In this document: one piece after another, positions 6,551 through 24,052 of the stretch
Layout: each line of letters opens with the position of its first letter
Numbering within the stretch: position 1 is the stretch's first letter
DNA from: an uncultured Prevotella sp.
Lineage (GTDB): Bacteria > Bacteroidota > Bacteroidia > Bacteroidales > Bacteroidaceae
Direction of reading: 5' to 3'
Assembly (NCBI GenBank): GCA_945787895.1
Contig: CALZJQ010000017.1
Location: forward strand, 1-32,901
Length of the DNA stretch: 32,901 bases
Made by a program: the position numbers and the translations under genes
Notes under the pieces: generated by a model
What the model was told of the DNA's origin: nothing
What the model saw: only the letters and a program-made list of their open reading frames with translations
Database searches by the model: none

Positions 6551-6928
6551 TCATTCTTCTGCGGCATCGTCATCATCTCCATAGCCTGAAAATTCCTCTA
6601 TGAAGCCTTCTACCTGATTGGTGATGCTGTTGATGGTCTTCTCCAACTGGCTTGCCGCTCCCTTGCTCATGACCTTGTAGCAAGCAGCCTTGAGCCGTCC
6701 TATCTCCTTGAGTTCTTCGTCGGAGTAGTCATACTCTTCGAGTTGTGTCACAATGTCTTCATACTGCAGTTTAGCCTCTTTCCAGTCCTGTTTGGAGAAA
6801 TCATCAGAGTTTTCTTTCAGGTACTCTGTGAAACCCCTGAGTTCGTCGAGTGCTTCCTGCTGTTTGTTGCATGATGTGAATATCATTGCAGAGAGTGCCA
6901 TGAAGGCAATGAACAGTATTTTTTTCAT
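6551..6928 (-). CDS. Small acidic helical lipoprotein, function unknown
   Basis: The N-terminus has a lipoprotein signal peptide: MKK, a hydrophobic stretch and the lipobox FTSC, with the acylated cysteine at residue 20. The mature part, about 105 residues, is almost entirely predicted helix, rich in Glu, Lys and Gln, and ends in a very acidic tail (GYGDDDDAAEE). I do not recognise a named family with confidence. It is the last gene before the strong hairpin at 6462-6509, 99 bp downstream of the TIR gene, so it may be the last cistron of the operon; the gap also holds one of the dispersed palindromes and a T-rich heptamer repeat. A periplasm-facing partner of the membrane proteins encoded upstream is possible but is an inference. 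Confidence 0.8.
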   Translation of the reverse strand: MKKILFIAFMALSAMIFTSCNKQQEALDELRGFTEYLKENSDDFSKQDWKEAKLQYEDIVTQLEEYDYSDEELKEIGRLKAACYKVMSKGAASQLEKTINSITNQVEGFIEEFSGYGDDDDAAEE

Positions 6929-6958
6929 GACTATGCTGTTTTATTTTTTCTTGTGTTG

Positions 6959-6983
6959 TACTCTTCGACCAGGTCGAAAAGTA
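6959..6983. repeat. Dispersed palindrome, copy A
   Basis: The core TTCGACCAGGTCGAA has perfect 7-bp arms around one base and is extended by TACT/AGTA with one mismatch pair between. It lies 31 bp upstream of the small lipoprotein start and is flanked on the left by TTGTGTTG, as in the other copies. Confidence 0.85.
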
Positions 6984-6989
6984 CCAGGT

Positions 6990-7019
6990 TTTTGTTTTTT
7001 GTTTTTTGTTTTTTGTTTT
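6990..7019. repeat. Heptamer repeat TTTTTTG between the TIR and lipoprotein genes
   Basis: About four consecutive copies of a 7-bp T-rich unit follow palindrome copy A. On the transcribed strand this is CAAAAAA repeats, similar in composition to other leaders in the window. Confidence 0.7.
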
Positions 7020-7027
7020 GAGGGGGA

Positions 7028-8014
7028 TTATTTTTTATAATATTTGAAGTAGAGGTATGGCAGGGAGATAAGCAGGGTGCCAGGCATGGCTATTCCCAGT
7101 ACTACGATGACTGCTATGAGGCATCCGCTTGGTTTTTCTCTGTCCTCGTATGTCGTTTGTCTTTCCTCTTCTCTTCTTCTTTGCTCTTCTAATCTTTTTT
7201 GCTCTTCTATCTGCGCCAGTTGTTGCTGGTGTTCTATTTCCATTTGTTTCTGGTATAGTTCCAGTCTTTTCTGATAGGCTTCATCTTCTATCTTTTTGTT
7301 CAGTTCCTCTTCTTTTTGTTGTCTCTGCCTTTCTCTTTCGTTTTCTTTGTAAAGGTCGATGAGATTGACTTTCAGGAACTGCTCTTTATCCTTTCCGTTT
7401 ACTTCATATTCCACGGAGCATCTCACCTCGGGGGTTTCTATATCAATAAACTCCAGGAGATGTTTTCCTTTTGCAAGTCTTATTTTGCAGTCTTTTCCTG
7501 CGTAGGCGGTGTCCAGTTCCTCTCCGTATCGTCTTACCTTGGCATTGCGTTCTTCGATGACGATGTGTACGAGTGTGCCGTATTCGTCTCCGGCCTCTAC
7601 GGTTTGTCCGAGGAGAGCCTTGAACTGTCCGAAGAGTTTTTCTTTCGACTTTTCATCTGTGATGGAATACGGTTTGCTTCTCAGGTTGAACTTGTCGCCT
7701 GCGGAGGTGAAAAGTTTCTTTTTCTCGATGACGATGGGCAGAATGTTACGGTTGATATTCTGTGCATATCTGACGCATTCAGCAACGTAGTCAGAGTTTC
7801 TTGCAGCATCGCTGATGAAGAGTACGAGGAATGCGGTCTCCTCTATTTTCCTTTCTTTTTCCTCATTGTAGGTATTGTCATTGCCATCCTGCATGGCAGT
7901 GGAGACCTTTGCGTTGAGTTCGTATTCCAGTTCCTTGACAAATTCCTTTACTTCTGCCGCATCTTCCCAGGCGTAGCATAGGAACAGTTTGTTGCTGATG
8001 TCTTGCATCTTCAT
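7028..8014 (-). CDS. Tail-anchored TIR-domain protein with coiled coil
   Basis: Residues 8-150 look like a TIR domain: LFLCYAWED forms strand A, FLVLFISDAARNSDYVAEC contains the region where TIR NADases carry their catalytic glutamate (here probably E79), and a RNILPIVIEKK strand follows. Bacterial TIR domains commonly cleave NAD+ or make signalling nucleotides in immune systems; activity here is not shown. Residues 165-225 look like a small beta-sandwich (PEGA-like). Residues 228-298 are a Gln/Glu/Arg-rich coiled coil, and about 298-322 form a single transmembrane helix followed by KYYKK. No signal peptide exists, so the protein should be a C-terminally anchored membrane protein with TIR in the cytoplasm. 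It lies 70 bp downstream of the membrane GTPase gene and fits an effector or signalling subunit of the operon. Confidence 0.85.
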   Translation of the reverse strand: MKMQDISNKLFLCYAWEDAAEVKEFVKELEYELNAKVSTAMQDGNDNTYNEEKERKIEETAFLVLFISDAARNSDYVAECVRYAQNINRNILPIVIEKKKLFTSAGDKFNLRSKPYSITDEKSKEKLFGQFKALLGQTVEAGDEYGTLVHIVIEERNAKVRRYGEELDTAYAGKDCKIRLAKGKHLLEFIDIETPEVRCSVEYEVNGKDKEQFLKVNLIDLYKENERERQRQQKEEELNKKIEDEAYQKRLELYQKQMEIEHQQQLAQIEEQKRLEEQRRREEERQTTYEDREKPSGCLIAVIVVLGIAMPGTLLISLPYLYFKYYKK

Positions 8015-8042
8015 TTCGGTTATGAGGTTTTTTGGGGGCTTT

Positions 8043-8072
8043 CGTTACTTACGTTATTCACGTTATTCACGT
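8043..8072. repeat. 9-bp tandem repeat between the membrane GTPase and TIR genes
   Basis: The units GTTACTTAC, GTTATTCAC and GTTATTCAC follow each other directly on the plus strand. The array is too short for a functional call. Confidence 0.6.
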
Positions 8073-8083
8073 CATCCCCTGTA

Positions 8084-9727
8084 TCACAATTTTACCTTGA
8101 GGTTTTCTATGATGCTGTCGGTCATCTTGTCAACGCCGATGTTCTTGAGGGCGGAGACGGCGAAGAAGTGCAGTGAGGCGTATGTGTTCTCCAGGTTGTT
8201 TACCTCGGCTGCCATACCTAACTGCTGGATGAAGAAGTCTTTGAGCTGTGCTTCGTCGTCCATCATTTCCTGTGGCACGTAGCCTGTGTCTGCCTTTACG
8301 AGAATGAGATTGACATGTATCTTGTCAGTAGCATGGGTAAACTGGTCGGAGAGTGCCTTGACGGAATGAATGACATCCGAGAGCTTTGATGTCGGCTTGA
8401 TGGCTTTCTTTGCTATGTTTTCGTTGTACCACGCTGCAAAGTCGCCGTCAATGTCATATTCCGTAAAGTCCATGGTGAACGGATCGACAAGGATAGATAC
8501 TACTTCCACGTCTTTGAAGAACTGCATATAGTCTGACTTGACGTTGGTGAACAGCTCTCCGCCTATGTCGTTGATGAAGAAGTGGTACGGTAGCGGTGCT
8601 TTTCCCGGCACAAGGATTTGCAGGCTTCTGCGCATATCGTTGATGCTGGTCTGTGCTGCTATCTCCTGTTCTTTGCCTTCCTTTATGTCGGTGATTATCT
8701 TCTGTGCTTCCTTGCTTACTTGGTCTGTGAAGGTCACCTCGGCAAAGCGTCTCATCATATTGCCCACGAATCTGTAGGTGAGGCAGGTCTTGCCTGACTC
8801 TGGCAGTCCTACGAAGGCGATGTGTTTCTCCACACCGGTCTGATAGTTGATGATGCGTTTGCAGTGCGGGCACATTCTTTCGAGTGAGTCTCTGCCGTTG
8901 AGCAGCATGGTGGGCATCTCCTCTTCCGTCTGTGGATGCTTGATATGGAAGAGTCCGTAAGGACCGGGGCGCAGCTTTATGGGCAGTTCATAGCCTTCTG
9001 AGAGGTATGTAGCGGGTTCTGACGGGTTATGGCAGAACGGGCATGGATGCTTGATGTTGTACTTTGAGGTCATCACGTACTCCACGAGCATGAAGGATCC
9101 TGCTACAATCATCGTGATTATTGCAGCGGCTACTCCCAGCATTATCGGTGTGAGGGCAATGATGAGGAACAACATGCCGTACTCCGTTACAGCGAATTTG
9201 CCGAGTTCCCATAGGTTGAGTGCGCTGTAGAAGTTGAATCCCGCTTCGACACAATCGTTTGCGAATGTTTCGATGTTGTCTTTATAATAGACTATCACTC
9301 CTCCTATCAGTACGGGGAGACAGCCTACGGGCTGCATTCCTATGAGGCACAGCACGCCTATGGCGAGGAGGATATATCCTATGATGATGAGTCCCCAAAG
9401 GAGTATTTTTACAAACCACAGCAGTCCGTAGCCTATTCCTCCTACAGCGAAGAGGATGAATGCAGAGAAAGCAGCGGATACCACGATGGCCATGGCGATG
9501 TATGCAACAGCCATGTATGGTTGCTTGTTGAACATAAACATCCTGCGCATTCCGTTCTCGTCATATTCTCCGCTGAGGTTTTCCCATATCTCCTTCCATT
9601 TGTCTAAGGTGAATGCGACTGCGAGGGTTACCAATGCCAGAATGGCGAATATCCATAACACTATTTCTGCCGTTTGTCCAGGGATATATATTCCTGCGAG
9701 GGGTGTGATGCTTAGTAAGGGAATCAT
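8084..9727 (-). CDS. Membrane-anchored zinc-ribbon GTPase of the double-GTPase (DO-GTPase) type
   Basis: I place the start at 9727 (MIPLLSITPLAG). The longer frame to 9823 would translate an intergenic repeat as TTKQQNNK units. Residues about 15-215 hold five or six transmembrane helices. A zinc ribbon has knuckles CPFC (about 228) and CPHC (about 285). The GTPase domain begins directly after with Walker A GLPESGKT (about 306-313), a G3-like INDIGGE and a G4-like LVKAD. The arrangement zinc ribbon plus P-loop resembles the soluble GTPase encoded two genes upstream, which supports a working pair. I recall the Pfam names DO-GTPase1 and DO-GTPase2 for such pairs; which number applies here is uncertain. 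It probably sits in the inner membrane with the GTPase domain in the cytoplasm, switching the complex between nucleotide states. Confidence 0.85.
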   Translation of the reverse strand: MIPLLSITPLAGIYIPGQTAEIVLWIFAILALVTLAVAFTLDKWKEIWENLSGEYDENGMRRMFMFNKQPYMAVAYIAMAIVVSAAFSAFILFAVGGIGYGLLWFVKILLWGLIIIGYILLAIGVLCLIGMQPVGCLPVLIGGVIVYYKDNIETFANDCVEAGFNFYSALNLWELGKFAVTEYGMLFLIIALTPIMLGVAAAIITMIVAGSFMLVEYVMTSKYNIKHPCPFCHNPSEPATYLSEGYELPIKLRPGPYGLFHIKHPQTEEEMPTMLLNGRDSLERMCPHCKRIINYQTGVEKHIAFVGLPESGKTCLTYRFVGNMMRRFAEVTFTDQVSKEAQKIITDIKEGKEQEIAAQTSINDMRRSLQILVPGKAPLPYHFFINDIGGELFTNVKSDYMQFFKDVEVVSILVDPFTMDFTEYDIDGDFAAWYNENIAKKAIKPTSKLSDVIHSVKALSDQFTHATDKIHVNLILVKADTGYVPQEMMDDEAQLKDFFIQQLGMAAEVNNLENTYASLHFFAVSALKNIGVDKMTDSIIENLKVKL

Positions 9728-9856
9728 GTTTTGTTGTTTTGTTGTTTTGTTGTTTTGTTGTTTTGTTGTTTTGTTGTTTAGTTGTTTGGTTGTTTGTGGC
9801 GCAATTGAGTCGGATACTATCAACTAAACAACAAGACAACAAAACAACAAAACACC
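9728..9856. repeat. TTGTTTTG / CAACAAAA fold-back element
   Basis: Six or so copies of TTGTTTTG-like octamers (9729-9793) are followed by a 33-bp core containing GCGCAATTGAGTCGG, then by complementary CAACAAGACAACAAAAC repeats (about 9823-9852). The element fills the whole gap between the GAP1-like gene and the membrane GTPase gene. On the transcript the A/C-rich arm abuts the GTPase start codon. Confidence 0.85.
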
Positions 9857-12262
9857 CTATTTCTTTGGTTTGAAGACACCAAAGATAGCCTTGAAAAATC
9901 CCTTTATTTTCTGAATGCGTTTATAACTCTTGTATTCTTTTGCGTATGATTTTTCAAAGAAAGCCTCTTTCCATTCTTTTTTCATGTCGAGCGTGGAAAT
10001 GATTTCAAATGCTTTCTTGAATGTCATCTTCTTTCTTTCCCTTAGGATAATGTCGAGTTTCAGAGGGTCGGCGACGGCAGCATTAAGGTCGTCAATCTCT
10101 TCTTTTACATCGACTCCTGGGTTGAAGTTCTCATAGAGTGCTATGAGTTCTTTCTGAGTGATGCTATTCTTATCCGCAGCTTTGAGGAAGGCATGGAGCA
10201 GTCTGTCGAAGGAGTCTCTGTCTTCCAATTCCCTGACGAGATAGAACATGGCGGGTATGGTGGAAGCGGACATATCGTCGTATCTGTCATATACTACCAT
10301 ATCGAGGTACATGGCAAGGTTGACGAAACTCTCGTTTCTGATGTTGAGGAATCCGAGAACGTTGCTGTTGAGCTTGCGCAGGGCCTCGGCGGCATTCTCG
10401 TGATTGTCCTTGTACATCCTCTTTATCTCTCCGAGGAAAGGTGTGTAGAGATTGTCGCTGTTGAAACCATTGCTGATGAGTTTTTTCAGCGAGTCATTAC
10501 CTTCGAGAATTTCTGTCAGTTGCTCTACCCCACTGATTGTCCGGTAAGGGTTTCTGTTTGCCTTGATGGAATAATAGAACAGCGGAGCATATTCCTTTTC
10601 GGTAAGTCTGTCGCTGAAGGCATTGAGCAGGTCGGGACAGGTGCCTTGGTTGAGATAGTGCTCCAGCATCTCCCACATCATGCCTGCCGGCTTGGCTCTT
10701 TTCTGCAGAATGGTGATGAAGAACTGCACCTTTGCCTCGTTGTCGCTTCCATGGGTATCGTCGATGATGGGTATGAGATATTTCTTCTCCATGTCGGGCA
10801 GGACAAAGCGGTTGTAGAGCATATTGTCCTTGCCCTTGAGTTCGGCTTCGGTAAGGAATACCTTGTAGAGGTCGAGCATATAGGGATACAGCACTTTTTC
10901 CTCCACGTAGTCACAGTGTTCCTCGAAGACGCTCTTGTCGAAGAACTGTCTTGTTCCCTTTACCGTGTGCTTGTCGAGTACTTTGCAGAGGAATGCCGCA
11001 CTGCTTAGGATACATCTGCTGACGCTGCCCATGACAGCCTGCGTGTTGTCCTGCATATTGAAGCCGTAGGACTCAAACTTATGGAAATCGCTGATGAGGT
11101 CGATGATGTTCTCCGTCGTGCAGGTGTTCATGGCCTCGGTGACGAGGTTGTCGAAATGCTCTGCATTCGGTGTGTCTTTCTTGGTGTACTCGCTGAGGAC
11201 TCTGAGTAATTCATCGCTTGAATATTTCAGGGTGGTGTAGTTGAATCTATGACGCTGTATGCAGTAGAGGAAGAAATTGTCGATGGTCTCTTTGGACATT
11301 TTCTTCACTGTCGCATACTCGGGCATCATGAGCCAGCGCAGAATGTCGTCTATCTGCGTCTTGTTGTTGCCGAACGCGCTGCTCACGAGTGATAGTAGTT
11401 CCTTGCCGAATGTTTTTGCTTCGTCCGTGTCGGGCATTTCGGCATTGTCTATGTCCATATACTCGTAGAGTCCGGGATATAGTTGGTGGGGATAGTCCGG
11501 CAGGATGAAATAGATGTCGAAATAATTGTTGATGCCATTGCTCCTGTGGTTGACAAGGGTGTGTATCTCTGTGGCAGACTTTCTGTCGAGCATTCTGTAG
11601 AAGTCTGCTGCAAGCGTGCGGGCACGTTCTTTCGTTACCCTTACGACGAGTTTCTTGCCGTTCTGCTTTGCTTTTAGATACGTGAAGAAGAGTTTCACGA
11701 CATCTTTGTCGAGCGAGTCCTTTACGTCAGCCTCAAAGGACTTTGTCTCTACGGGCAGCGGAGTCTGCTTGCCGAGAGATATGGTTCTCATCTCCTCGTT
11801 GTCCTCTGTCGGTCGCACGGAGGCGGGGATGAAATGGTTTGACTCCGGCAAGGCTTTCTCGTAGAGTATCTGATAGACAGAGGACTCCGGCAGTTCTTCA
11901 AAGGCGTAGTAGTCGATGACGTAGTTGCCAGGACGCGTGGGAATGCCATTGCTGTAAAAAGCATAGTTGAAGCCTACGTAGGCTCTGCGTGCTATGATGT
12001 GGAACATCTTGCCCTGCCTGTCGGTGATGCTGGTGACGGCATAGTATTTTGCTATGTCGTCCATTATTTCAGGGTGCTCCTTTATCTGTGCCGTAGTGGG
12101 CTGGTTGGAGAGGTCTTCCCACATATCATTGAAGAGGTTGATGTCCCTGATGGCTTCAATGAGTGATTCGGGTGTTCCCTCCGTTGCAGTCCTTATTCCG
12201 AAGCCTGCACCTCCTGTCATTGAACTCTCTGAGGAGTTGTATATTATGTGGTAGTAGTTCAT
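9857..12262 (-). CDS. GTPase-associated protein 1 (GAP1)-like protein
   Basis: The N-terminus (YHIIYNSSESSMTGGAGFGI, with TGGAGFGIR at residues 16-24) resembles the GAP1 N-terminal domain, a family that I recall as being named for co-occurrence with double-GTPase genes in predicted conflict systems. The rest, about 600 residues, is largely helical with no catalytic motif that I can identify and no membrane segment or signal peptide; the C-terminus is strongly basic (KIKGFFKAIFGVFKPKK). It lies between the two GTPase genes, which fits a scaffold or regulator bridging them. The name does not mean GTPase-activating protein, and that activity has not been shown. Assignment rests on motif memory and gene context; a profile search would settle it. 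Confidence 0.75.
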   Translation of the reverse strand: MNYYHIIYNSSESSMTGGAGFGIRTATEGTPESLIEAIRDINLFNDMWEDLSNQPTTAQIKEHPEIMDDIAKYYAVTSITDRQGKMFHIIARRAYVGFNYAFYSNGIPTRPGNYVIDYYAFEELPESSVYQILYEKALPESNHFIPASVRPTEDNEEMRTISLGKQTPLPVETKSFEADVKDSLDKDVVKLFFTYLKAKQNGKKLVVRVTKERARTLAADFYRMLDRKSATEIHTLVNHRSNGINNYFDIYFILPDYPHQLYPGLYEYMDIDNAEMPDTDEAKTFGKELLSLVSSAFGNNKTQIDDILRWLMMPEYATVKKMSKETIDNFFLYCIQRHRFNYTTLKYSSDELLRVLSEYTKKDTPNAEHFDNLVTEAMNTCTTENIIDLISDFHKFESYGFNMQDNTQAVMGSVSRCILSSAAFLCKVLDKHTVKGTRQFFDKSVFEEHCDYVEEKVLYPYMLDLYKVFLTEAELKGKDNMLYNRFVLPDMEKKYLIPIIDDTHGSDNEAKVQFFITILQKRAKPAGMMWEMLEHYLNQGTCPDLLNAFSDRLTEKEYAPLFYYSIKANRNPYRTISGVEQLTEILEGNDSLKKLISNGFNSDNLYTPFLGEIKRMYKDNHENAAEALRKLNSNVLGFLNIRNESFVNLAMYLDMVVYDRYDDMSASTIPAMFYLVRELEDRDSFDRLLHAFLKAADKNSITQKELIALYENFNPGVDVKEEIDDLNAAVADPLKLDIILRERKKMTFKKAFEIISTLDMKKEWKEAFFEKSYAKEYKSYKRIQKIKGFFKAIFGVFKPKK

Positions 12263-12305: not shown

Positions 12306-12357
12306 GGTATGCCGAAGCCTCCGGTCATTTATTGTCTGTCGGTATGCCGAAGCCTCC
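12306..12357. repeat. 35-bp direct duplication at the 3' end of the zinc-ribbon GTPase gene
   Basis: The 17-mer GGTATGCCGAAGCCTCC occurs at 12306-12322 and 12341-12357, with similar flanks (CTGTTATCTACT versus TTGTCTGTC). The upstream copy on the minus strand encodes the last residues GGFGIPTDNK; the second copy falls after the stop codon and would encode GGFGIPVDNR in another frame. Confidence 0.85.
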
Positions 12358-13554
12358 AATCTTGTGGAGCACCCATATCAGCGGGTCCATGACGCGGAAT
12401 GGTTTCACCTGCTCGTTGTCCAGTATGTCTATCTTCATCATGGCGTTGGTCATGCTTCCGAGAGCCGACACTCCGAAGAACCTGGCATTGTCGCCCCATA
12501 GGTGAGTGATGTCATCGCCGAGAGCTCCCTCGTCCCAGTGTTCCTCCATATAGCCCTTTATCATGTTGCTTGCCTCGTCAATCTCTTTCAGTGAGAAGAC
12601 TCCTGTGTTGATGAACGAACTGTTGTGCTTGAATGCAGTGATGTCAAATTCGAGGTCTTCCTGATTCTGTATGACGGAGTCGAACTTACTCATGACGAAA
12701 GCGAAAGGTGTCTCTTTCAGTTTTGGATTGTCGGTGACGAATGAACGCAACGCATCCATCGTTTCGCTGAAAGGTGTTGCCTTGTCCTGATTGACGATGT
12801 TCTTTGATGCCAGTATGTTTTGGATGTATGGCAGGGAGAGAGTATCGAGAAGCACTATGACAGCCTTTGATTTCTGCAGGTACTTGGCATTCTTCTTTAT
12901 CTCTTCGGGGTCACGGAAACTCTCGCCTGCCGTATCGTAGAAGACGAGATAGACCGCCTTGTTCGTAGTGTGGCTCTCAAGGCGGAACAGCCATGGTATA
13001 GGGTGTGATGTCACTCGTGTCTGCGGCACGGGTGTATGATCCTTGAATATCGTATCCTTTGCTCTTCCGTAGAGATGGTTCGTGTATTCTGTCTTTGTCC
13101 TTCCCACGAGTTGCGGCACTATCTGCGAGAGTGACAGCTTATAGCCGTATTTCTGCATCTGCTGGATGAGGGTGACGATATAGTTTGACTTGCCGCTGGC
13201 AGGACCTCCGATGACGGAAACTATTTCCGAGCCTTTCTCTATCATCTCTGTAGGTAGCCAGTTGTTGCAGTGGGGGCATACGAATCGTGTAGAGGGCGTG
13301 CCGCATTTGTCGCACTTGCACGCTTTCGGCTTATATCCGAAAAGCTTGTCTTTCCATCCTATTTCAGGGTAGAAGACGTGCTTTGACATAACTTTCTCAT
13401 CCCAGTGTTCGTTGAATCTCTGGTTTTCCTCGCGTTCGCATACTTCTTGCGGCATGCCATCAATGGTGCGGGTGGCATAGTTCTCGCACTGCACCATCAC
13501 CTCTGTATTATTGAAGCTCTCAAAGCAGTATGGGCATAATATTGTCTTTGCCAT
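12325..13554 (-). CDS. Soluble zinc-ribbon TRAFAC-type GTPase (DO-GTPase2-like)
   Basis: The protein opens with CPYC (residues 7-10) and carries two further knuckles, CDKC and CPHC, before the GTPase domain, so one or two zinc ribbons are likely. The nucleotide-binding motifs are clear: Walker A GGPASGKSN (about 114-122), G3 VFYDTAGESF (about 201-210) and G4 MSKFD (about 288). There is no transmembrane helix, unlike its partner encoded two genes downstream. The family is known mostly from gene-neighbourhood work as a component of predicted conflict systems; its exact role is unknown. The start is preceded by a purine-rich leader with GGAAATCACC. It lies between the 679-aa gene and the GAP1-like gene and should act with both. 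The 3' end shows a recent 35-bp duplication. Confidence 0.88.
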   Translation of the reverse strand: MAKTILCPYCFESFNNTEVMVQCENYATRTIDGMPQEVCEREENQRFNEHWDEKVMSKHVFYPEIGWKDKLFGYKPKACKCDKCGTPSTRFVCPHCNNWLPTEMIEKGSEIVSVIGGPASGKSNYIVTLIQQMQKYGYKLSLSQIVPQLVGRTKTEYTNHLYGRAKDTIFKDHTPVPQTRVTSHPIPWLFRLESHTTNKAVYLVFYDTAGESFRDPEEIKKNAKYLQKSKAVIVLLDTLSLPYIQNILASKNIVNQDKATPFSETMDALRSFVTDNPKLKETPFAFVMSKFDSVIQNQEDLEFDITAFKHNSSFINTGVFSLKEIDEASNMIKGYMEEHWDEGALGDDITHLWGDNARFFGVSALGSMTNAMMKIDILDNEQVKPFRVMDPLIWVLHKIGGFGIPTDNK

Positions 13555-13623
13555 GGTGATTTCCTTTTTTTTTGTTTTTTTTTCCTTCCTCTTTCTCTCT
13601 CTCTCTCTCTCCTCTTTCTCTTA
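13555..13623. repeat. TC microsatellite and T tracts in an operon gap
   Basis: An uninterrupted run of nine TC dinucleotides (13594-13611) lies between T8-T9 tracts and CCTCTTTCTC. On the transcript it is a GA-rich leader ending about 40 bases before the start of the zinc-ribbon GTPase gene. Such tracts vary readily in length. Confidence 0.85.
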
Positions 13624-15663: not shown

Positions 15664-15799
15664 TTTTGTTGTTTAGTTGTTTGGTTGTTTGGTTGTTTAG
15701 TTGTTTGGTTGGTTGGTTGTATTGTTGTTAGCCAGACTCCATTGCGAAGACAAACAACAAAACCACAAAACAACAAAACAACCAAACAACCAAACAAAG
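15664..15799. repeat. TTGTTTGG / CCAAACAA fold-back element
   Basis: Repeated TTGTTTGG and TTGTTTAG units (15668-15716) face complementary CAACAAAACAACCAAACAACC repeats (15755-15796), around a core containing GACTCCATTGCG. The element fills the gap between the HSP70-like gene and the 679-aa gene, and its A/C-rich transcript arm ends at the start codon of the latter. Confidence 0.85.
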
Positions 15800-18700
15800 T
15801 CAATTCTTTCCGAATACTTCTCTGAGCAGCACCTCTTCGAGGTAGTACAGCGCAGTGGCGATGAATATCGGCATACGGTAGGAGTCATTGTTGCTCTTGC
15901 GGATATTCTCCACGTACTTCCTGTATTCGCTGTCTCTTACGATGAAGTTGCGCACGTTGCTCACCATCTCTACCTTGCTGTCCAGGCTGTTGGTCTGAGG
16001 ATAGATAGGCGTTGCATTGCCTACAAATTGGAGGAATATGTTCATAAACTCGCTGAAGTTCTCGAAGCGGCGAGGCACGGAGATGGCTCCTTCGTACTCA
16101 TAGAAGTTGTCATCTACGAGAGCAAGTTCGTCGATTTCCACGCCGTTCAGCTTGATGCCTATCTCTCCGATAACCTCCTGCTTGCGGGCATCGTACTCAT
16201 TCTTTGCCTTTTCGTTCCGTTTGCCGTAGAAATTCTTGCGGTTAGGCTGTATGCCGGAAATCTCATGGCGGGAGACGAGACCGCGTGCCACCTCCGACTT
16301 GTTCTCGGAGTTGTCGTTTTGACTCCACTGGTCGTCAGAGCAGTTGTCGAAGATGCACTTTATTTCCTTGCCGTTGCGTCCGAACTTGGCATTGATGACG
16401 TCGTTCTTCAGTCCTGCGTTGAAGCAGGCATCGAGGTAAGATTCCACGGTGTCTTTGTTGAACGAGAAGAAGAGCCATTCGAAGAGTCGTCCTCCCTTAC
16501 CGAAGTAGCGGAAGTGTACCTCCTCGACTTCCTGCATGTTCTGCGTGAGGATGGCATTTCTCACGAGCATTCCGGAGTATGTCATCAGTGCTCCCACGAT
16601 GTAGGCAGGCAGCGTGAAGACGAAAGGCACGTCACCCTTGAGGTAGTTGTAGAAGGTCTTGAACTCCTTGTCGCCTTTCAGCTGGTCGAAGATATTGTTG
16701 AGGTAATAAGGTGCTCTCTGTGGGTTTGACTCTATGCTGTTGATGTCTTCCACCCGGATATTTGTCGTCCTTGAGGCATGGAAGCGCACGATGCAGTCAC
16801 GGAATCTCTTTGAGCCCAGGATAGCGTCGAAGAACACTCCTGCCGCCATGCGTACGGAGCATTGCGTGTAGAGCCTGCGGTCGGTCTGTCCGGGCTTCTG
16901 GCAGTTGGCGGGAGCGGCTGGGGCTGTGCGTGGCTGTGCGACTGGAGCAGACGCTTTCTGTACGGGAGCAGCCTTTCTTGCCTTGAGCAGTTCGACTATT
17001 TCGCTGCGGCTCATGTCGTCCAGTTCCCTTGCGCTTGCAAGTCTGCGCTGCAGGGCGAGGTCGCTGAGCTCGCTGCGGCTCAGTTCATCGTAGTCGATGC
17101 CTGCACCGCCCTCGTTGGCCTTGAGCAGTTCGACTATCTGGCTGCGGCTCATGTCATCCAGTTCCCTTGCGCTTGCAAGCCTTTGATTGAGAGCCATTTC
17201 GCACAGTTCGCTGCGTGACAGTTCGTCATAGTCGATGCCTGCACCGCCCTCGTTGGCCTTGAGCAGTTCGACAATCTCGCTGCGGCTCATGTCGTCCAGT
17301 TCCCTTTCGCTTGCAAGCCTGCGCTCAAGGGCAAGGTCTGACAGTTCCCTGCGTCCCATCTCGTCGTAGTCGTAGGATGGGGTAGGGGCGGCTGCATTGG
17401 TGACGGCGGCGGGTTCTGCCTGTTGTGCTGCCGCTGGCTCGGGAATGGCGACATTGTTTGTCTCCTTTCCGAGTACGAGGATGTCGGAGGTAGAACCACC
17501 GATGTCGATGCCTACGAAGAGTTTGTAGTTCTCCAGGGCTATCCTCTTGTCGAGGAAGTAAGAGCATACGGCTTCTGCCTCGGTGTAGGAGTTCTTGTTC
17601 TCTATTCTATAGTCGGGGCATGGTGAGGGAATATCGCTGAAGATGCTTTCGAGAGTTCCCATGTCATTGGCTCCCATCGCGCTCGGATATGACCAGTTGA
17701 GCGTGTTGGGGTAGAGTCCTTCGGCGAAGAGGTCAGCGTATATCTGTATCCATATCATCTTGACGAAGGCTGTCTTGCGTCGGCTGCCCTCGGTATCTAC
17801 CAGCCATTTCATGTTGTAGTGCAGACGTCCGGCATTCGTCGTTATCTGGTATCTGTCCATGTTGTTGACCTTGATGTTGGTCTCATTGACAGGAACGCCG
17901 CCGATGAGTTCTTCTCCCATCATGTTTTGGTTGATGAATCTCGGGTCATGTTCGTGCAGCCATGACTTTATCTGTCCGTTCTTGTTGCACGGCTCTTCGT
18001 TGGAGATGAACAGCAGTTCGTTGTGCTCGGCAATATTGACGGGTTTGTTGTCGAAGCCGATGATGGCGAGACGTCTGTTGGTGAAAGGCACAGGCTTGAC
18101 ATCGCTGCCGTCCTGCCCTGCATAATAGGCGCAGGAATTGGTGCTGCCGAAGTCGAAGCCCACGGTAGCCGGGGTAAGGTTGTCGGAATCTCTGAGCACC
18201 TGAAGCGTCGTGGCACCTTCCTTGTTGTCATTGTCACGGCGTATGATAATCCATCCGAGGTCGCACATGCTGTTGCCTATGCGCTTGCGCATCTTTATCC
18301 TGCGCAGCGGCTTGTTGGTACGCATTATCTCGTAGGCATGGGTATCGGTGGCTGCATCAGCCGGATATTTTGCCATTTGGAGGAATGCTTCCTTGTCGAT
18401 GGTCTCCAGCAGGGTCGTATCCTCCACGTCCACTATGTCATCGAATACGGGCACCATCTGCACGTCTGTCGTGGCATTGGTGGGGAACTCGCTGTAATAA
18501 TAGTATTTCTGCCACTTGGCGGAGCAGAAGTTAGGCCATGCGAAGACTTTTTTCAGCGGATTGGGGCTCTCGGTGTTGAACGAGCGGTTGCGGATATTCA
18601 CCCATTCGCCTTCGCCGTCGATGCGTGCCTTGAGATAGATATCCACTCTGTTGCCTATCTTCTCTGCCTCTATCTTGACATTATTGTTGCCGCCCTTGAT

Positions 18701-19987
18701 TATAGGTGCAAACTCCTGCTTGAAGACTTCGTCGAGTGCAAACTCGCTGAATGGCACGGCGATGAACCATGTGACACCATTTTCCACGGTACGGATGAAG
18801 TGTACGGGCGACATACGGTAGTCATGCTCCATCTTCGTCGTCGCCTTGCCGTTGCTGTCGGTCACGGGAACAGCGCAGTCACGCCACACGGCAATGTAGT
18901 CGCTGTCGATGAACAGTCGTTCCACGTCATCCACCTTTACCTCGTTGCCGTCTGCCGTTGCCATGGCATTGTTGAGCAGTTTGGTGTAGAAGATACCGCT
19001 CTTCCAGTAGTACGTTGCCTTGATGTTGAGCAGTTCGCCCAGCGGTCCTTCCGGACGCTTGTGGTTGACGGGGATATTCTGTGACCTCTCGGCGTTGTTC
19101 TCACCGAGGATAGCCTTTATCTCGTTCATCCAGGCGGATATAGCCCCGCTGAGCACACTCTGTACCTGATAGTAGCGGGCATCGGTCGTGATGGGCTTGT
19201 TGTCCTTGTTGTGGTCATTGTCCCAGATGCCCTTCAGCGTCTCTATGTAGGTAGCCGTGTTCTTCTGTACTCCATAGAGGAAAGAGTAGAGTTTCTTCAG
19301 GTTGTTGTAGTGCTTGTCGTTGTATTTTACCTCACCCTCCTTGTAGTATATCTCATACTGCTTGGAAGCCGGGTCCTGGAACTTTCCGTCCTGCGTTATC
19401 CAGTACATCCTCTGGTCGTCAGCCTGCATCCTGTAGTTCATGCTGGAGAAGAGGATGCTGAAAGGTGACGTTGCGCCTATGAGGAAGCGGTTGTCGCCGT
19501 TATGGTAGTAGAGAAGCTGTATCTTCGGTTCGCTCTTGTCACCGCGCACGTGCTTCCACAGCGAGGTGTTCTCAAAGAGCATCTCGGCGTATGTGCTGAT
19601 GATGTCAAACTTTCCGTCGCGCTGTCTCATATCCTTTGACACGAGGTCGATGGGCTTGGTCAGCTCAAAATCCTCGGGGTACAGCACGTAGGCTGCTATG
19701 AGTCCGCGCCATTCGTTACGCAGGAAATTATAGAATTGTGTCAGCGTGCGTGTGTCTTTGGTATCATTGCCAGGCATGATGGCATGCTGGGTCAGGTGTA
19801 CCCTTGCCCAGGGCGACGGCACGCTGGAGACTAAGAGATTGAATTTTGCCGATTGACTCATTTCACCGCCGGTCGTATCAATGCTGTCGATGAACTGTGC
19901 CACCATCTGCATCTGTTCCCATGTGTTGGGCTTGGTCTGCTGGGTGTTGCTGGTGCTCTTTGGTAAGAGATTCTTTGTTATGGCCAT
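15800..19987 (-). CDS. Giant HSP70/actin-like ATPase with internal 46-residue repeats
   Basis: The actin/HSP70 ATPase fold is indicated by a phosphate-1 motif VGFDFGSTNSCAYYAG (about 606-621), a phosphate-2 motif VGIDIGGSTSDILVLG (about 824-839) and a glycine-rich adenosine-like segment YFGKGGRLFEW near 1168. About 600 residues precede the ATPase core and match nothing I know. Between phosphate-2 and the next subdomain, an Ala/Pro/Gln-rich linker is followed by three copies of a 46-residue unit (about 872-1000) built on DELSRSEL..LAL..RLAS and ELDDMSRSEIVELLKA. Each half looks like a short helix-turn-helix of SAP or LEM type. No signal or membrane segment is visible. Members of this superfamily either fold clients or form filaments; here it is encoded next to a tubulin-like protein. 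At 1395 residues it is far larger than DnaK (about 640). Confidence 0.85.
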   Translation of the reverse strand: MAITKNLLPKSTSNTQQTKPNTWEQMQMVAQFIDSIDTTGGEMSQSAKFNLLVSSVPSPWARVHLTQHAIMPGNDTKDTRTLTQFYNFLRNEWRGLIAAYVLYPEDFELTKPIDLVSKDMRQRDGKFDIISTYAEMLFENTSLWKHVRGDKSEPKIQLLYYHNGDNRFLIGATSPFSILFSSMNYRMQADDQRMYWITQDGKFQDPASKQYEIYYKEGEVKYNDKHYNNLKKLYSFLYGVQKNTATYIETLKGIWDNDHNKDNKPITTDARYYQVQSVLSGAISAWMNEIKAILGENNAERSQNIPVNHKRPEGPLGELLNIKATYYWKSGIFYTKLLNNAMATADGNEVKVDDVERLFIDSDYIAVWRDCAVPVTDSNGKATTKMEHDYRMSPVHFIRTVENGVTWFIAVPFSEFALDEVFKQEFAPIIKGGNNNVKIEAEKIGNRVDIYLKARIDGEGEWVNIRNRSFNTESPNPLKKVFAWPNFCSAKWQKYYYYSEFPTNATTDVQMVPVFDDIVDVEDTTLLETIDKEAFLQMAKYPADAATDTHAYEIMRTNKPLRRIKMRKRIGNSMCDLGWIIIRRDNDNKEGATTLQVLRDSDNLTPATVGFDFGSTNSCAYYAGQDGSDVKPVPFTNRRLAIIGFDNKPVNIAEHNELLFISNEEPCNKNGQIKSWLHEHDPRFINQNMMGEELIGGVPVNETNIKVNNMDRYQITTNAGRLHYNMKWLVDTEGSRRKTAFVKMIWIQIYADLFAEGLYPNTLNWSYPSAMGANDMGTLESIFSDIPSPCPDYRIENKNSYTEAEAVCSYFLDKRIALENYKLFVGIDIGGSTSDILVLGKETNNVAIPEPAAAQQAEPAAVTNAAAPTPSYDYDEMGRRELSDLALERRLASERELDDMSRSEIVELLKANEGGAGIDYDELSRSELCEMALNQRLASARELDDMSRSQIVELLKANEGGAGIDYDELSRSELSDLALQRRLASARELDDMSRSEIVELLKARKAAPVQKASAPVAQPRTAPAAPANCQKPGQTDRRLYTQCSVRMAAGVFFDAILGSKRFRDCIVRFHASRTTNIRVEDINSIESNPQRAPYYLNNIFDQLKGDKEFKTFYNYLKGDVPFVFTLPAYIVGALMTYSGMLVRNAILTQNMQEVEEVHFRYFGKGGRLFEWLFFSFNKDTVESYLDACFNAGLKNDVINAKFGRNGKEIKCIFDNCSDDQWSQNDNSENKSEVARGLVSRHEISGIQPNRKNFYGKRNEKAKNEYDARKQEVIGEIGIKLNGVEIDELALVDDNFYEYEGAISVPRRFENFSEFMNIFLQFVGNATPIYPQTNSLDSKVEMVSNVRNFIVRDSEYRKYVENIRKSNNDSYRMPIFIATALYYLEEVLLREVFGKN
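16982..17395 (-). repeat. Three 138-bp in-frame tandem repeats inside the HSP70-like gene
   Basis: The plus-strand word CTTGAGCAGTTCGAC recurs at 16982, 17120 and 17258, exactly 138 bp apart, and the copies are similar throughout. They encode the 46-residue repeats of the protein. The third copy (17258 onwards, the first in the protein) diverges at its outer end. Confidence 0.92.
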
Positions 19988-20002: not shown

Positions 20003-20198
20003 AAGGTGGGTTCTGTTAATTCGCTTTGTCATATTTTGGATTTATTTTCGAGGACAAATTGTAAGTTGAAGAGGGAGCGTAGCGGGCTACGTGACCGATG
20101 AGACTTACGATTTGTACCGAAAAGAAACCAAAAGATGACAAAACGTCAAACCTACATAATAAACATTTTTGGCGGTGGGAATTAATAGAACCCACCTT
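20003..20198. repeat. 196-bp imperfect palindrome between the tubulin-like and HSP70-like genes
   Basis: The outer arms AAGGTGGGTTCTGTTAATTC (20003-20022) and its complement (20179-20198) match at 19 of 20 positions. Inner arms GTCATATTTTGG...GACAAATTGTAAG and their complements (20102-20145) continue the pairing with few mismatches, and the tip contains the small hairpin CGTAGCGGGCTACG (20078-20091). One side has an unpaired insertion of about 33 bp (20146-20178). The right end includes the stop codon of the tubulin-like gene. It can form a cruciform in DNA or a long hairpin in mRNA. Confidence 0.85.
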
Positions 20199-21759
20199 AT
20201 GCGGTGAAACCGAATAGTTTGGAGAATGTGGTATAGGTACGCTTCAGGAGGGCGGAGACGGCGGTCTTGTCACTATCGGTGAAGACAGTGTCGCCAAACT
20301 CCTTCTTGAACGTGTCGTATGCGCTGCCGAGCATGCTGACCTGATAGCCGTGGGCAGAACCGGTCGGGTAGAGCAACTGGTTGTACTTGAACTTACCGGC
20401 AGACTTGGACGACGTGCTGTAGGCGGCCTCGTTGAAGAGGAAACCTCTGTAGCCCTGGTCTGTGGCTGACTCCTGCATCTGCTTTATCCATCCGCTGCCG
20501 GGCTCTTTCTCGTCAAGGCATTCAAGGTCGTAGAACCTGCGGAAATAATCGCGGATGTCCTTCACGTTCTGTTCCGTAAGGGCTTGGAAAGAAGTGTGGG
20601 CGCGGCGGTTGCTGGCAAAGTCCTGAGGACCGAAGAGGAAGGCGGAAGCCATCATGATGCCGCACTTCTGGGCAAACTTCTCACGGTCTTCACCGAAGAA
20701 ACTCTCAAACGTAAGGTTGTCATTCTCGTCCGTTCCTATCGTGCGGTAATATACCTCTGCCTTGTCTCCGAAGACTGGCTTGTCAGCATTGCGGAGAGCC
20801 GTATGGAAGAAGTCGTAGGCTGCGGAGGCTGCCATCAGTTCGATGTAATCCTCGGGGTTGCGCTGTGAGTCGCCGCCCGTCACGCTGCGTGCATCCTTGG
20901 AAGATACGTTGCGTGGCGTATCGCGACCGATGAGGTAGAGACGCTTGTAGGTCTTGTTGACCGTCTCGTCCTCGTTGTAGAAAGCAAGGGCGGCCTGTGA
21001 GTTAAGGGCAAACTTGTCCGAGGTGGCATATACCTTGTCTGTCGTGTTGGGTACGTCGAAACTGAAATAGTTGGTAAGCATCACGGTGCCGAAATAGTTT
21101 TTTGAGAGAACGTCACCGTTGCCTTTGTCGGATATTATCTTCGCCGCTTCCTGAAGAGCGTGGGGGAGGATAGGGATGGAAGAAGCTCCCGTACCGCCGA
21201 ATACCGAACCGAAGAGGAAGACGATGCTGCTGCCGTCCATCAGGTTCTGCACGTATCTGACGAGGTCGCTGCCGTTGGACCTGTTCTTGTAAGCCTCCTC
21301 CTTGATGGCATGGTACATCAGCATGGAGCCCATCTGCGTCTGGGCACGATAACCGTGCTGCAAATCCATGTCACGCATGTCGGGAGTGAGGAAGAGGTTG
21401 GCAAGGTCAGCGTCGCTCCATTTCACTCCGTCTTCGTCGTGTGTCGTGGTCTCTGCCTGATTGTAGTTTGCCACACCGTTGTACGTAGTGCCGGCCTTAT
21501 AGTTGGGACTGAACGAGTAATATACTATCTTTGCCGAGAACAATGTGTCGGATGCTACGCCGTCCCTGTCTGCCGTCACGCGGTTGTAGTTGTTGATAAG
21601 CTCCTGAAGCCTCTTGAAGTTACCGTTCTCATAGTCGGTGTCGAGGGCGAGAAGGTGTACTTCCGTATCGTCGAACATGCCCATGGAGCAGAGATGCACG
21701 AGGCACTCCGCACAGCGCATACCTGTTCCTCCTATGGCTATGACGTTGAATTTTTGCAT
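20197..21759 (-). CDS. Tubulin/FtsZ-superfamily GTPase-like protein
   Basis: The N-terminus FNVIAIGGTGMRCAECLVHL has the glycine-rich first loop of a nucleotide-binding Rossmann fold, and VFGGTGASSIPIL (about 186-198) matches the tubulin signature GGTGxG/S loop that contacts GTP phosphates. I therefore assign it to the tubulin-like family found in bacterial operons (Pfam Tubulin_2 type). The length, 520 residues, exceeds FtsZ (about 380) with an extra C-terminal part. No membrane segment is present. Whether it polymerises cannot be read from sequence. The start codon follows a leader of TTTGTC-type hexamers (GACAAA on the transcript). It lies upstream of the HSP70-like gene and is separated from it by the 196-bp palindrome. 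Confidence 0.85.
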   Translation of the reverse strand: MQKFNVIAIGGTGMRCAECLVHLCSMGMFDDTEVHLLALDTDYENGNFKRLQELINNYNRVTADRDGVASDTLFSAKIVYYSFSPNYKAGTTYNGVANYNQAETTTHDEDGVKWSDADLANLFLTPDMRDMDLQHGYRAQTQMGSMLMYHAIKEEAYKNRSNGSDLVRYVQNLMDGSSIVFLFGSVFGGTGASSIPILPHALQEAAKIISDKGNGDVLSKNYFGTVMLTNYFSFDVPNTTDKVYATSDKFALNSQAALAFYNEDETVNKTYKRLYLIGRDTPRNVSSKDARSVTGGDSQRNPEDYIELMAASAAYDFFHTALRNADKPVFGDKAEVYYRTIGTDENDNLTFESFFGEDREKFAQKCGIMMASAFLFGPQDFASNRRAHTSFQALTEQNVKDIRDYFRRFYDLECLDEKEPGSGWIKQMQESATDQGYRGFLFNEAAYSTSSKSAGKFKYNQLLYPTGSAHGYQVSMLGSAYDTFKKEFGDTVFTDSDKTAVSALLKRTYTTFSKLFGFTA

Positions 21760-21772: not shown

Positions 21773-21834
21773 GTTTTTTGTTTTTGTTTTTGTCTTTGTT
21801 TTTGTCTTTGTCTTTGTCTTTGTCTTTGTCTTCT
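21773..21834. repeat. TTTTTG / TCTTTG hexamer array
   Basis: Ten or so hexamers, first TTTTTG and then mainly TCTTTG, run without interruption. On the transcript they give a CAAAGA-rich leader that ends about 14 bases before the tubulin-like start codon. Confidence 0.9.
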
Positions 21835-21866
21835 TTCTTTTCATGGTCTGCCCGGCTTGCGGTCAG

Positions 21867-21894: not shown

Positions 21895-21918
21895 ATTCCC
21901 CTTCCCGTTCTACCGCAA

Positions 21919-22308
21919 TCAGAACATGGAAGCGAGCTTGGTGTCCTTCTTCTGCAACTTGCAGATGATGAATGTCACCACACCATAGATGACGGCGCAG
22001 AGGATGGCGGCTATCATCATGTGCATGATATATTCGCTGGTAAACTGTGCCTTGGTGATATGGCGCATCCATGTCAGGTAATCCACGGCGAGACAGGTGA
22101 AGAGTGATGCCACGCCGAGTGACCAGAACCACGTCTTGCGTTTTGCCGGTGACGGGTCATGTGCGCCCGGCTGCCATGCTATGAGGTTAGCCACGATGAT
22201 GATGAGTACTATGAATGCTACTGCGATTACTGCATCTGTAAGGTAGGTTGCCATCTCTGCTGAATGTAGCTTTGCTACGGTGTCGATTTTGTCTGTGAAG
22301 CTTGCCAT
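21919..22308 (-). CDS. Three-helix inner-membrane protein, function unknown
   Basis: After an amphipathic N-terminus (MASFTDKIDTVAKLHSAEM), three hydrophobic helices are visible: about 25-44 (AVIAVAFIVLIIIVANLIAW), 62-80 (FWSLGVASLFTCLAVDYLTW) and 95-118 (MMIAAILCAVIYGVVTFIICKL). The loop after the first helix is polar and basic (PSPAKRKTW), which suggests it faces the cytoplasm. I recognise no family. In the operon it lies between the lipoprotein gene and the tubulin-like gene, so it may recruit the cytosolic filament-type proteins to the membrane; this is inference. The gap on its 5' side is filled with TTGTTTAG repeats and a palindrome copy. Confidence 0.8.
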   Translation of the reverse strand: MASFTDKIDTVAKLHSAEMATYLTDAVIAVAFIVLIIIVANLIAWQPGAHDPSPAKRKTWFWSLGVASLFTCLAVDYLTWMRHITKAQFTSEYIMHMMIAAILCAVIYGVVTFIICKLQKKDTKLASMF

Positions 22309-22312
22309 AGTT

Positions 22313-22400
22313 GTTTAGTTTTTTTGTTGTTTAGTTGTTTAGTTGTTTAGTTGTTTAGTTGTTTAGTTGTTTAGTTTTTTAGTTTTTTAGTTTTTTAGTT
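22313..22400. repeat. TTGTTTAG and TAGTTTTT tandem repeats
   Basis: About six copies of the octamer TTGTTTAG are followed by four copies of TTTTTTAG. The transcript equivalent, CTAAACAA repeats, sits immediately before the three-helix protein's start codon. Here only one arm is present; there is no complementary partner in the gap. Confidence 0.9.
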
Positions 22401-22422
22401 TTTTGCCTTTTGTTTTTGTCTT

Positions 22423-22450
22423 GTGTTCTTCGACCAGGTCGAAGAATACC
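22423..22450. repeat. Dispersed palindrome, copy C
   Basis: The core TTCTTCGACCAGGTCGAAGAA (22426-22446) is a perfect 10+1+10 palindrome, with GTG on the left and TACC on the right. It lies between the lipoprotein and three-helix genes. Confidence 0.9.
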
Positions 22451-22468
22451 TTTGCCCTCTGCTTGCCC

Positions 22469-23800
22469 TTAGTTGGTGAAGGTGGAGAGGTAGATGCTGT
22501 AGATGACGGGGTTGCCGCTGTTCTCAGGACTGATGGCAGGGTCAAGGAGCGTCTGCTTCAGGCTCTCATAGACGGACGTGTTGTAGCCGTAGGGGGAGTC
22601 GAACTGGAACTTGCTGCCTATCTCGGGGTTGCTGGAGAAGTTCTCCTTTGACTTCTTTACGCAGATGTCAAGGCGCAGGAGATTGCCTTCCTCGCCCGTC
22701 AGGCAACTGCCGTCGAATTTCGGAGAGAGCTTTATGACGATTTCGCCTTGCTTCCATGCTGCCTCGTCGATGACGAACATATTGGTGAGCGGCTCAGGAA
22801 GCTGTATCTGCTTCTTCGCCTTGGCGTCGAAAGAGGTGTAGAGGCTGCTTACCTCGTAGCACTTCACTTCTATTTCCGATGGCTTGTAGGCATCTTCTGC
22901 CGTAATGTTGAGCTTCAGACCCTTGAGGTAGAAGTCGCCGCCCTTGATGGGGTTGCCGTTGTCATCCTCGGCGTTGAGGACGAAGTCATAGACGTTCTCC
23001 CATTTCTCGTCCTGCAGGTGCCATTCGCAGGAGAGGGCGGGGTAGATGCCGTTGGTCTCTTCTGGCATGAGGAGGTCGTTCAGTACGACGCCTGTCTCTG
23101 CTACCTTCATGGAAGGGATGCCGCTGTAGAGGTGTACCATGCTCACGTCTGCCTGCTTTGGAGCTACGCGTGAGAATATCTCGTGGATGTTGTTGTCGAT
23201 GCGGTGGTCGGTGAAGAGCATATAGTAGCGGTTCTTTATGAACTTCCCTGACTGGTAAGGCTCGCTATACACGTAGATGTCGAGACCCATGCTGAGCCAT
23301 TTCTTGAACTCGTCGGCGAGGTAGGGGTTGTTCAGACTGGCTCCTATGCCTTTCAGATAGTACTCACCGTCGGTGATGAGTATAGCCTCATGCTTGTTGG
23401 CTATGATGCTATCTACCGCTCCCTTGATGTCGGAGTAGTCCACGTTGGTGATGGTGTTGAGCAGCTGGTGCACCTTCATCTTGTCGTTGGTCTCCATCGT
23501 GATGGCATTGCCCTTGATGGAATAGTAGTTGGGGTTGCAGGCTATGATGGCAGGCTGCACGCTGTGGTAATACTGCGACTGGCCGGCTGTCGTCATGCAG
23601 TCGGAGTAGTCGATGTACAGGTCCACCACTGCGCCTCCCTTGCCCTCGGCATCCGTGGCGAGGATATTGGCGGCTTTGCCTGATGTGTACTTGTGGAACG
23701 AAGCGATGTTGTCCATATCCTCTACTCGGTTTGACGAGCATGAGAAGAGGAGAAGTGTTCCTACGAGGAGTGTAGCAAATGAAAGAAATTTGTTTATCAT
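22469..23800 (-). CDS. Lipoprotein with von Willebrand A-like domain
   Basis: I place the start at 23800 (MINKFLSFATLLVG), 17 codons inside the longest frame, because this gives a standard lipoprotein signal: Lys, a hydrophobic stretch and the lipobox LLFSC with the acylated cysteine at residue 21. The mature N-terminal half resembles a vWA fold: VVDLYIDYSDCM (about 58-69) has a metal-site-like DxSxC in place of DxSxS, and ILITDGEYY would supply the later metal aspartate. vWA domains usually bind protein ligands through a metal. The C-terminal half looks beta-rich and has no motif I know. It should be anchored in the periplasm or outer membrane, giving the otherwise cytosolic and inner-membrane system an envelope-facing subunit. 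The Ser-to-Cys change may weaken metal binding. Confidence 0.82.
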   Translation of the reverse strand: MINKFLSFATLLVGTLLLFSCSSNRVEDMDNIASFHKYTSGKAANILATDAEGKGGAVVDLYIDYSDCMTTAGQSQYYHSVQPAIIACNPNYYSIKGNAITMETNDKMKVHQLLNTITNVDYSDIKGAVDSIIANKHEAILITDGEYYLKGIGASLNNPYLADEFKKWLSMGLDIYVYSEPYQSGKFIKNRYYMLFTDHRIDNNIHEIFSRVAPKQADVSMVHLYSGIPSMKVAETGVVLNDLLMPEETNGIYPALSCEWHLQDEKWENVYDFVLNAEDDNGNPIKGGDFYLKGLKLNITAEDAYKPSEIEVKCYEVSSLYTSFDAKAKKQIQLPEPLTNMFVIDEAAWKQGEIVIKLSPKFDGSCLTGEEGNLLRLDICVKKSKENFSSNPEIGSKFQFDSPYGYNTSVYESLKQTLLDPAISPENSGNPVIYSIYLSTFTN

Positions 23801-23869
23801 AGTGAGAAAGTATTTTGTTTTTTTGTTTTCTTTTTTTGTCTTTTTCCACAAGCGGGGAGAGGTTGGTGT

Positions 23870-24052
23870 TTATCCTCCGAGCAGCGTGCTCAGTGCGTCA
23901 TACACGCCGAGGAATATCAGCAGCCAGCCTATAACCTTGCAGATGAGCACTTTCTGCTTCTTTGCCTTGCTTCGCTTTGAGCCTGACAGAAAGTTGGGCA
24001 GCACTGCCATGATGAGTATTCCGAATATTATTATGATGATTGCGCCTGTCAT
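23870..24052 (-). CDS. Small two-helix membrane protein, first gene of the operon
   Basis: This 60-residue protein has a hydrophobic N-terminal helix (IIIIIFGILIMAVLPNFL, about 5-22), a very basic loop (KRSKAKKQK, about 26-34) and a second hydrophobic helix (VLICKVIGWLLIFLGVYDAL, about 35-54). The basic loop predicts a helical hairpin with both ends in the periplasm. I recognise no family. It lies 69 bp upstream of the lipoprotein and is the first gene after the promoter at 24208-24239, with a leader of roughly 150 bases. Small hairpins of this kind can regulate or anchor a complex, but nothing here shows which. The same strand, the spacing and the absence of another promoter support its place in the operon. 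Confidence 0.75.
   Translation of the reverse strand: MTGAIIIIIFGILIMAVLPNFLSGSKRSKAKKQKVLICKVIGWLLIFLGVYDALSTLLGG

Follow-up and report, generated by a model that had tools for sequence, protein, structure and literature searches.

The 32,901-nt window analysed here, which is the entire contig CALZJQ010000017.1 (G000:C17) of a draft genome of an uncultured gut Prevotella sp. (2.76 Mb, 198 contigs, 88.85% complete), carries an operon of eleven open reading frames (ORFs), all on the minus strand and numbered g1 to g11 in the direction of transcription (Table 1). Sequence comparison and structure models divide it into a five-gene core coding for a vWA-like lipoprotein (g2), a protein with two transmembrane (TM) segments (g3), a tubulin-like protein (g4), a giant HSP70/actin-type ATPase (g5) and a pseudo-HSP70 (g6), a swappable switch cassette of two DO-GTPases and a GAP1-type protein (g7, g8, g9), and accessory genes for a TIR protein (g10) and a small lipoprotein (g11). 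This anatomy and the modularity of the system are well supported. Judged from the neighbouring genes and from published predictions, we give a probability of about one half to the reading that the operon encodes one envelope-linked, nucleoside triphosphate-driven complex with which the cell answers stress or conflict at its envelope.

In the closest relative, locus L064, whose tubulin is 74% identical, the order g1 to g10 is the same and the flanking genes are different, indicating that the operon is not fixed to this site. Our full set comprises 85 loci (80 named, 5 unnamed), which are not independent of each other, since L082 equals L064 and several others are near-copies. Gene order was counted over the 80 named loci, 77 of them with a readable tubulin ORF (all except L085, L119 and L123). 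The giant ATPase gene comes next after the tubulin gene in 67 of the 77, while three reach a contig edge and seven differ; in L067 the ATPase was called only as a fragment ORF. Of the 54 loci with room for a g6 gene to follow, 46 have one; upstream there is room in 62 loci, 51 of which carry the vWA gene and 48 the TM gene. An earlier note on this DNA, made from the letters alone, had described an eleven-gene membrane-linked operon on one strand and named conservation of gene order in other Bacteroidales as one of the checks; the eleven ORFs, the shared order with L064 and the recurrence of the core in dozens of loci, with order conserved in other Bacteroidota, bear out a single conserved gene set.

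Tubulins of the g4 type occur in 19 of 295 genomes of the order, in 10 of these at ≥37% identity, and in 51 of 399 genomes of the family, 44 of these at 20–34% only. The nearest named relatives are two metagenome-assembled genomes (MAGs), one of a Bacteroidaceae member and one of a Prevotella. Two MAGs are titled outside Bacteroidota, L104 (Chlorobiaceae) and L129 (Saccharibacteria), their binning being taken as given. A deep branch that is common in the family sample (group B; L070-L081, L034-L042) has the order vWA-TM-tubulin-giant ATPase, often followed by a 550-aa protein and an OmpA-like protein. By hhalign, its vWA-like (95%), TM-like (98.5%, against g3) and OmpA-like (99.8%) proteins are counterparts of those found here and in relatives; the 550-aa protein was considered as the counterpart of g6 and is not related to it by profile.

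What follows the core is exchanged. Among the 49 loci whose flank has room after g6, of which 44 are named and 5 unnamed, the cassette is of the Ter type in 33, GTPase/GAP1 in 11, kinase in 2 and other in 3; nine further loci with room and without a g6 match stand outside the 49. Ter-type cassettes consist of TerD or TerD-slot proteins, an OmpA-like protein, and TerC or a P-type cation ATPase. Pfam confirmed TerD in the tested proteins of L137 and L131, the other Ter labels being given by profiles seeded with L137. For at least 7 of those 33 loci (L065, L066, L068, L087, L089, L090, L104) the label depends on the TerD-slot protein U192, which is weakly TerD-like (hhalign 52%; two tested without a Pfam match). 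Within the flanks covered, Ter and GTPase genes stand together in none of the mapped runs. Of 15 genomes carrying a GTPase cassette, many of them incomplete, one has TerD at another place. Kinase-type genes follow the core in L112 (Pkinase, 2.2e-41) and L121 (by profile). The Pedobacter strains among the named loci have a Ter-type core.

On a tubulin tree of 81 rows, whose labels differ from the locus counts (12 GTPase, 31 Ter, 3 kinase, 35 unknown), the distribution of the 12 GTPase-type rows calls for 8 changes, of which starred branches force at least 6. A single clade of GTPase-type cores is rejected at p-AU 4.8e-6, on a quick tree that contains long branches. In the GTPase tree, L084 and L140 form a pair with a support of 100/99, their GTPases being 68% identical. 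In contrast, the core of L140 is closer to that of the Ter-type L143 (58% for the tubulin, 50% for the ATPase) than to that of L084 (40% and 30%). This mismatch shows that cores and cassettes have recombined. Since most of the loci mapped have a Ter-type cassette behind the same core, the probable role of the chassis is in responding to stress or conflict and not in DNA partitioning.

Judged by sequence, the labels tubulin-like, GAP1 and HSP70/actin are firm only once relatives are included. The window's own g4 and g8 proteins fall below the cut-off of their families or give no match. Pfam Tubulin was matched by 31 and Tubulin_2 by 28 of 32 members of the g4 family (E ≤ 0.05), with 2.4e-7 as the best Tubulin_2 match; the window protein matches Tubulin only, at E 0.0016. 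Compared with the PDB, the family profile reached a solved tubulin/FtsZ chain at E 0.011 only. Across the 32 aligned rows FGGTGA is invariant (FGGTGASS in the window) and the canonical GGGTG(S/T)G loop is absent. Because this departure is common to the whole branch, we call g4 kin of FtsZl1 and not a canonical member.

With relatives included, g5 shows matches to MreB (4.5e-5) at the phosphate-2 region and to HSP70 (4.2e-4) at the phosphate-1 region. The family matches of g4 and g5 uphold the earlier proposal that the tubulin and HSP70/actin folds are encoded together. SrfB was rejected as the identity of g5, being matched by 1 of 28 members at E 0.04. After the phosphate-2 hairpin, g5 holds 207 extra residues in the window, 198 in L064 and 230 in L083, whereas other rows with both ends found have 4–22, except for L121 with 50, a value that reflects a missed end pattern; the end was not matched in five rows, and in 14 the phosphate-2 pattern could not be read. 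In the window, the insert contains a 138-bp tandem repeat (16980-17372, 2.8 copies) encoding 46-aa units. Read by eye, the L083 insert has GYF-like sequence, and GYF_2 was matched by 1 of 28 g5 relatives at 1.6e-27, which we take to be L083. SAP-like repeats suspected by eye in the insert gave no Pfam match above cut-off. Exchanged between sisters at the hinge of the ATPase, the inserted domain is a candidate client or sensor tether.

Structures were predicted for g6 and g2. The model of g6 has an HSP70 nucleotide-binding fold over residues 1-363, followed by a helical region and a beta domain. Its phosphate-1 and phosphate-2 nucleotide motifs are absent from the 32 aligned rows, read by eye; compared with the atypical HSP70 Ssz1/DnaK fold, g6 differs in lacking nucleotide motifs and in its C-terminal region. 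In Pfam scans, which took in 10 of the operon proteins, fn3 was not matched (E ≤ 0.1), the C-terminal beta domain of g6 not being searched alone. The vWA protein g2 has an incomplete metal ion-dependent adhesion site (MIDAS). Profile matches to g1 come from 10 loci, where its position varies. The operon encodes six proteins that are membrane-bound or lipid-anchored, and the envelope linkage claimed before is upheld.

Both GTPases of the switch cassette exceed their Pfam cut-off of 27 bits, g7 with 34.6 for DO-GTPase1 and g9 with 27.8 for DO-GTPase2. A Glu after Walker B, the mark of DO-GTPases in the TRAFAC clade, is read in their sequences as DTAGE and DIGGE. The true start of g9 is probably at 9727, where a repeat (9727-9795) lies. 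GAP1-N2 was matched by 9 of 12 aligned g8 family members, the window g8 giving no match, and the kinship with GAP1/DO-GTPase systems stated in the earlier note is confirmed. A g9-type GTPase stands directly after GAP1 in the window, L064 and 10 further loci fetched and is fused to GAP1 in L162; one genome, G694, gave no match. Within the family, GAP1 was matched in 5 of 399 genomes: those of the window and L064, G305 (E 4e-4), and G419 and G431, in which the same GTPase-GAP1-GTPase cassette lies behind HSP70 genes and a zinc-ribbon protein (L177, L178), a placement like the HSP70 theme described by Kaur et al. (PMC7159879). In G431 (L178:4223-17828) the cassette, with HSP70 and HSP70-vWA genes, has a TraG-type coupling protein as its neighbour and so may be part of a conjugative element.

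The g10 protein contains a TIR_2 domain (38.5 bits, Pfam cut-off 28) and matches ThsB_TIR at E 0.0064, below its cut-off. The likely catalytic glutamate that the earlier note saw is one residue before the catalytic column, which we take to be four residues after a conserved Trp/Tyr. This column holds Cys in the window and Phe in L064, whereas all 14 readable TIR_2 domains taken from related genomes as references, three of them belonging to one protein, show Glu; a profile of the 14 confirms the register, and four more relatives (L184, L203, L205, L206) have Glu. A TIR gene is present in 2 of 12 GTPase-type loci, the window and L064, and was not seen in the other 10 fetched, among them L166, whose contig ends 533 nt past the last GTPase. 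For both reasons the proposed TIR output is unsupported. The TIR protein was matched in 6 of 399 family genomes, strongly only in G435, the genome of L064. A sequence search of TIR structures with the TIR end of g10 found no TIR chain. In 6 other loci, a g11-type gene immediately precedes the vWA gene.

Operons with FtsZ-like, vWA, GTPase and OmpA genes were described in 2010 by Makarova and Koonin (PMC2875224), who name Bacteroides caccae in their Figure 1 legend. Their FtsZl1 (Tubulin_2) operons resemble the window and its relatives in the tubulin-like, vWA and GTPase genes and, in relatives, in OmpA-like or kinase genes. In contrast, the constant partners here are the giant ATPase and the pseudo-HSP70, and the window lacks OmpA; the text of PMC2875224 is without the words HSP70, TerD and tellurite, and its Additional File 6 families may include these genes unnamed. 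Kaur et al. (2020, PMC7159879) described GAP1-N2/DO-GTPase systems with tubulin or HSP70 and predicted conflict functions for them. They share with the window a zinc-ribbon DO-GTPase, a GAP1-N2 protein and a membrane DO-GTPase, along with tubulin and vWA (theme 1) or HSP70 (theme 2) partners. By their account, the two themes do not overlap and the tubulin theme belongs to Firmicutes and Actinobacteria, whereas the window joins tubulin and HSP70-fold proteins in Bacteroidota and has no FNIII protein detected among the proteins scanned. Relatives of the core carry TerD-TerD-OmpA-TerC or a P-type cation ATPase as in Ter clusters; the window has none of these. Among the matches listed in a literature search, with subscription journals thinly covered, no title or abstract joins TerD, tubulin-like and HSP70-fold genes in one operon. 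At the strength of that negative, the gene combination, the pseudo-HSP70 and the modular exchange appear new; to this extent the earlier statement that the combination is not known as characterised holds, although systems of the kind were known from the 2010 and 2020 papers.

In the mechanism that we propose, g2 and the membrane proteins would relay an envelope insult inward, and g4, g5 and g6 would assemble on the inner membrane, with g6 joining g5 as its nucleotide-less partner. The two DO-GTPases and GAP1 might together act as a threshold switch, the TIR protein as a membrane-tethered assembly adaptor and not as an NADase, and the variable g5 insert might tether a client or adaptor. The least certain parts are whether filaments form, what triggers the system and what it finally does to the cell. 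Several observations weigh against this reading. Effectors of known activity are lacking, given a TIR domain without Glu and found in so few loci. PADLOC gave weak sub-threshold matches only, the best being 3.7e-4 for g11 against JetC, as did NCBIfam. Mobility is weakly supported: none of 50,697 phage records matched, and the 5 matching plasmids, out of 72,556 records, are all from cyanobacteria. The two plasmids examined (L199, L200) have tubulin, giant ATPase and vWA-type matches, the last on the other strand in L200. There are also sigma-70-like sites within the operon, and Makarova and Koonin (PMC2875224) favour membrane remodelling.

That proposal, made for FtsZl1 operons with vWA, GTPase and OmpA, would make the system a remodelling or vesicle machine in which the tubulin-like protein forms polymers under the inner membrane and membrane is shaped or moved by its vWA, OmpA-like and GTPase partners. 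The six membrane or lipid-anchored products fit it; nevertheless, FtsZl1 is without recognisable T6-H7 elements and the topology was doubted by a reviewer (both PMC2875224), and exchange with Ter and GTPase cassettes is better fitted by signalling, so that we regard it as unlikely, if the strongest of the rivals. Still less probable is a housekeeping role in metal or calcium homeostasis at the envelope, with the chassis regulating ion transport and the GTPase cassette standing in for TerD, TerC and the P-type cation ATPase. Such genes do follow the core in Ter-type relatives (by Pfam for examples, otherwise by profiles), but no transporter or TerD family was matched among the ten operon proteins scanned, nor TerD in the source genome at its 88.85% completeness.

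Abortive infection with a TIR NADase output, for which the encoded TIR domain speaks as in Thoeris and other defence systems, is very improbable given the missing glutamate and the rarity of the TIR gene in GTPase-type loci. Intergenic gaps reach 209 nt, and repeats as well as promoter-like sites occur inside the operon, which might speak for a chance neighbourhood of unrelated genes; the order shared with L064 beside other flanks, and the core in dozens of loci, refute it.

Table 1. Features of the operon and its surroundings (window coordinates).
Feature	Position	Strand	Basis
Promoter-like element TTTG-N20-TAnnTTTG	24208..24239	-	exact pattern match
g1, 60 aa, two predicted TM segments	23870..24052	-	TM count; profile matches
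g2, vWA-like envelope lipoprotein, incomplete MIDAS (DxSx[CG])	22469..23851	-	
g3, two-TM core protein	21919..22308	-	
g4, tubulin-like GTPase, kin of FtsZl1/Tubulin_2, FGSVFGGTGASS	20197..21759	-	
g5, 1395-aa HSP70/actin (ASKHA) type ATPase, DFGSTNS and DIGGSTSD loops	15800..19987	-	
g5 insert, 207 aa, directly after phosphate-2 hairpin; 138-bp tandem repeat (46-aa unit)	16862..17482	-	
g6, pseudo-HSP70	13624..15663	-	
g7, soluble zinc-ribbon DO-GTPase	12325..13554	-	Pfam
g8, GAP1-N2 type protein	9857..12262	-	Pfam on family members
g9, membrane DO-GTPase: N-terminal TM segments, zinc ribbon, GTPase	8084..9823	-	Pfam, TM count
g10, TIR domain, middle region, coiled coil, C-terminal TM	7028..8014	-	Pfam, alignment
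g11, small lipoprotein, recurrent partner	6551..6928	-	profiles
Terminator-like hairpin	6462..6509	-	z -6.15; absent from simple scan's list
Short tandem repeats in or near operon	6989-7019, 8043-8072, 9727-9854, 13581-13622, 15664-15797, 21777-21832, 22308-22404, 24054-24112, 24281-24366		
Short tandem repeats, further spans	2588-2704, 25133-25200, 31836-31889		

The operon is flanked downstream by methionine synthase and MTHFR genes and upstream by thiamine genes with a thiamine pyrophosphate (TPP) riboswitch. The promoter-like pattern, which we take to be the Bacteroidota-type consensus, has 3 exact matches in the window against 0.31 expected; the other two are at 6339-6369 (minus strand), just before the methionine synthase gene, and at 28853-28883 (plus strand). 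Short tandem repeats with periods of 6-24, often 8, occur in many of the gaps in and around the operon, also just upstream of the promoter, and could vary spacing or translation.

To our knowledge, Ter resistance, FtsZl1 operons and DO-GTPase/GAP1 systems are each without a settled mechanism. We tentatively suggest, at somewhat less than even odds, that the core is a general envelope signalling chassis, in which a tubulin-like GTPase, a catalytic and a nucleotide-less HSP70-fold protein and a vWA-type sensor are combined with interchangeable outputs (TerD/calcium-metal, DO-GTPase/GAP1 or kinase), the three systems being faces of one modular machine. The tubulin-like protein and two HSP70/actin-fold proteins encoded together name a concrete ensemble that is open to co-purification. 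If a shared chassis with swapped cassettes is indeed at work, one experiment would inform Ter, FtsZl1 and DO-GTPase/GAP1 systems alike.

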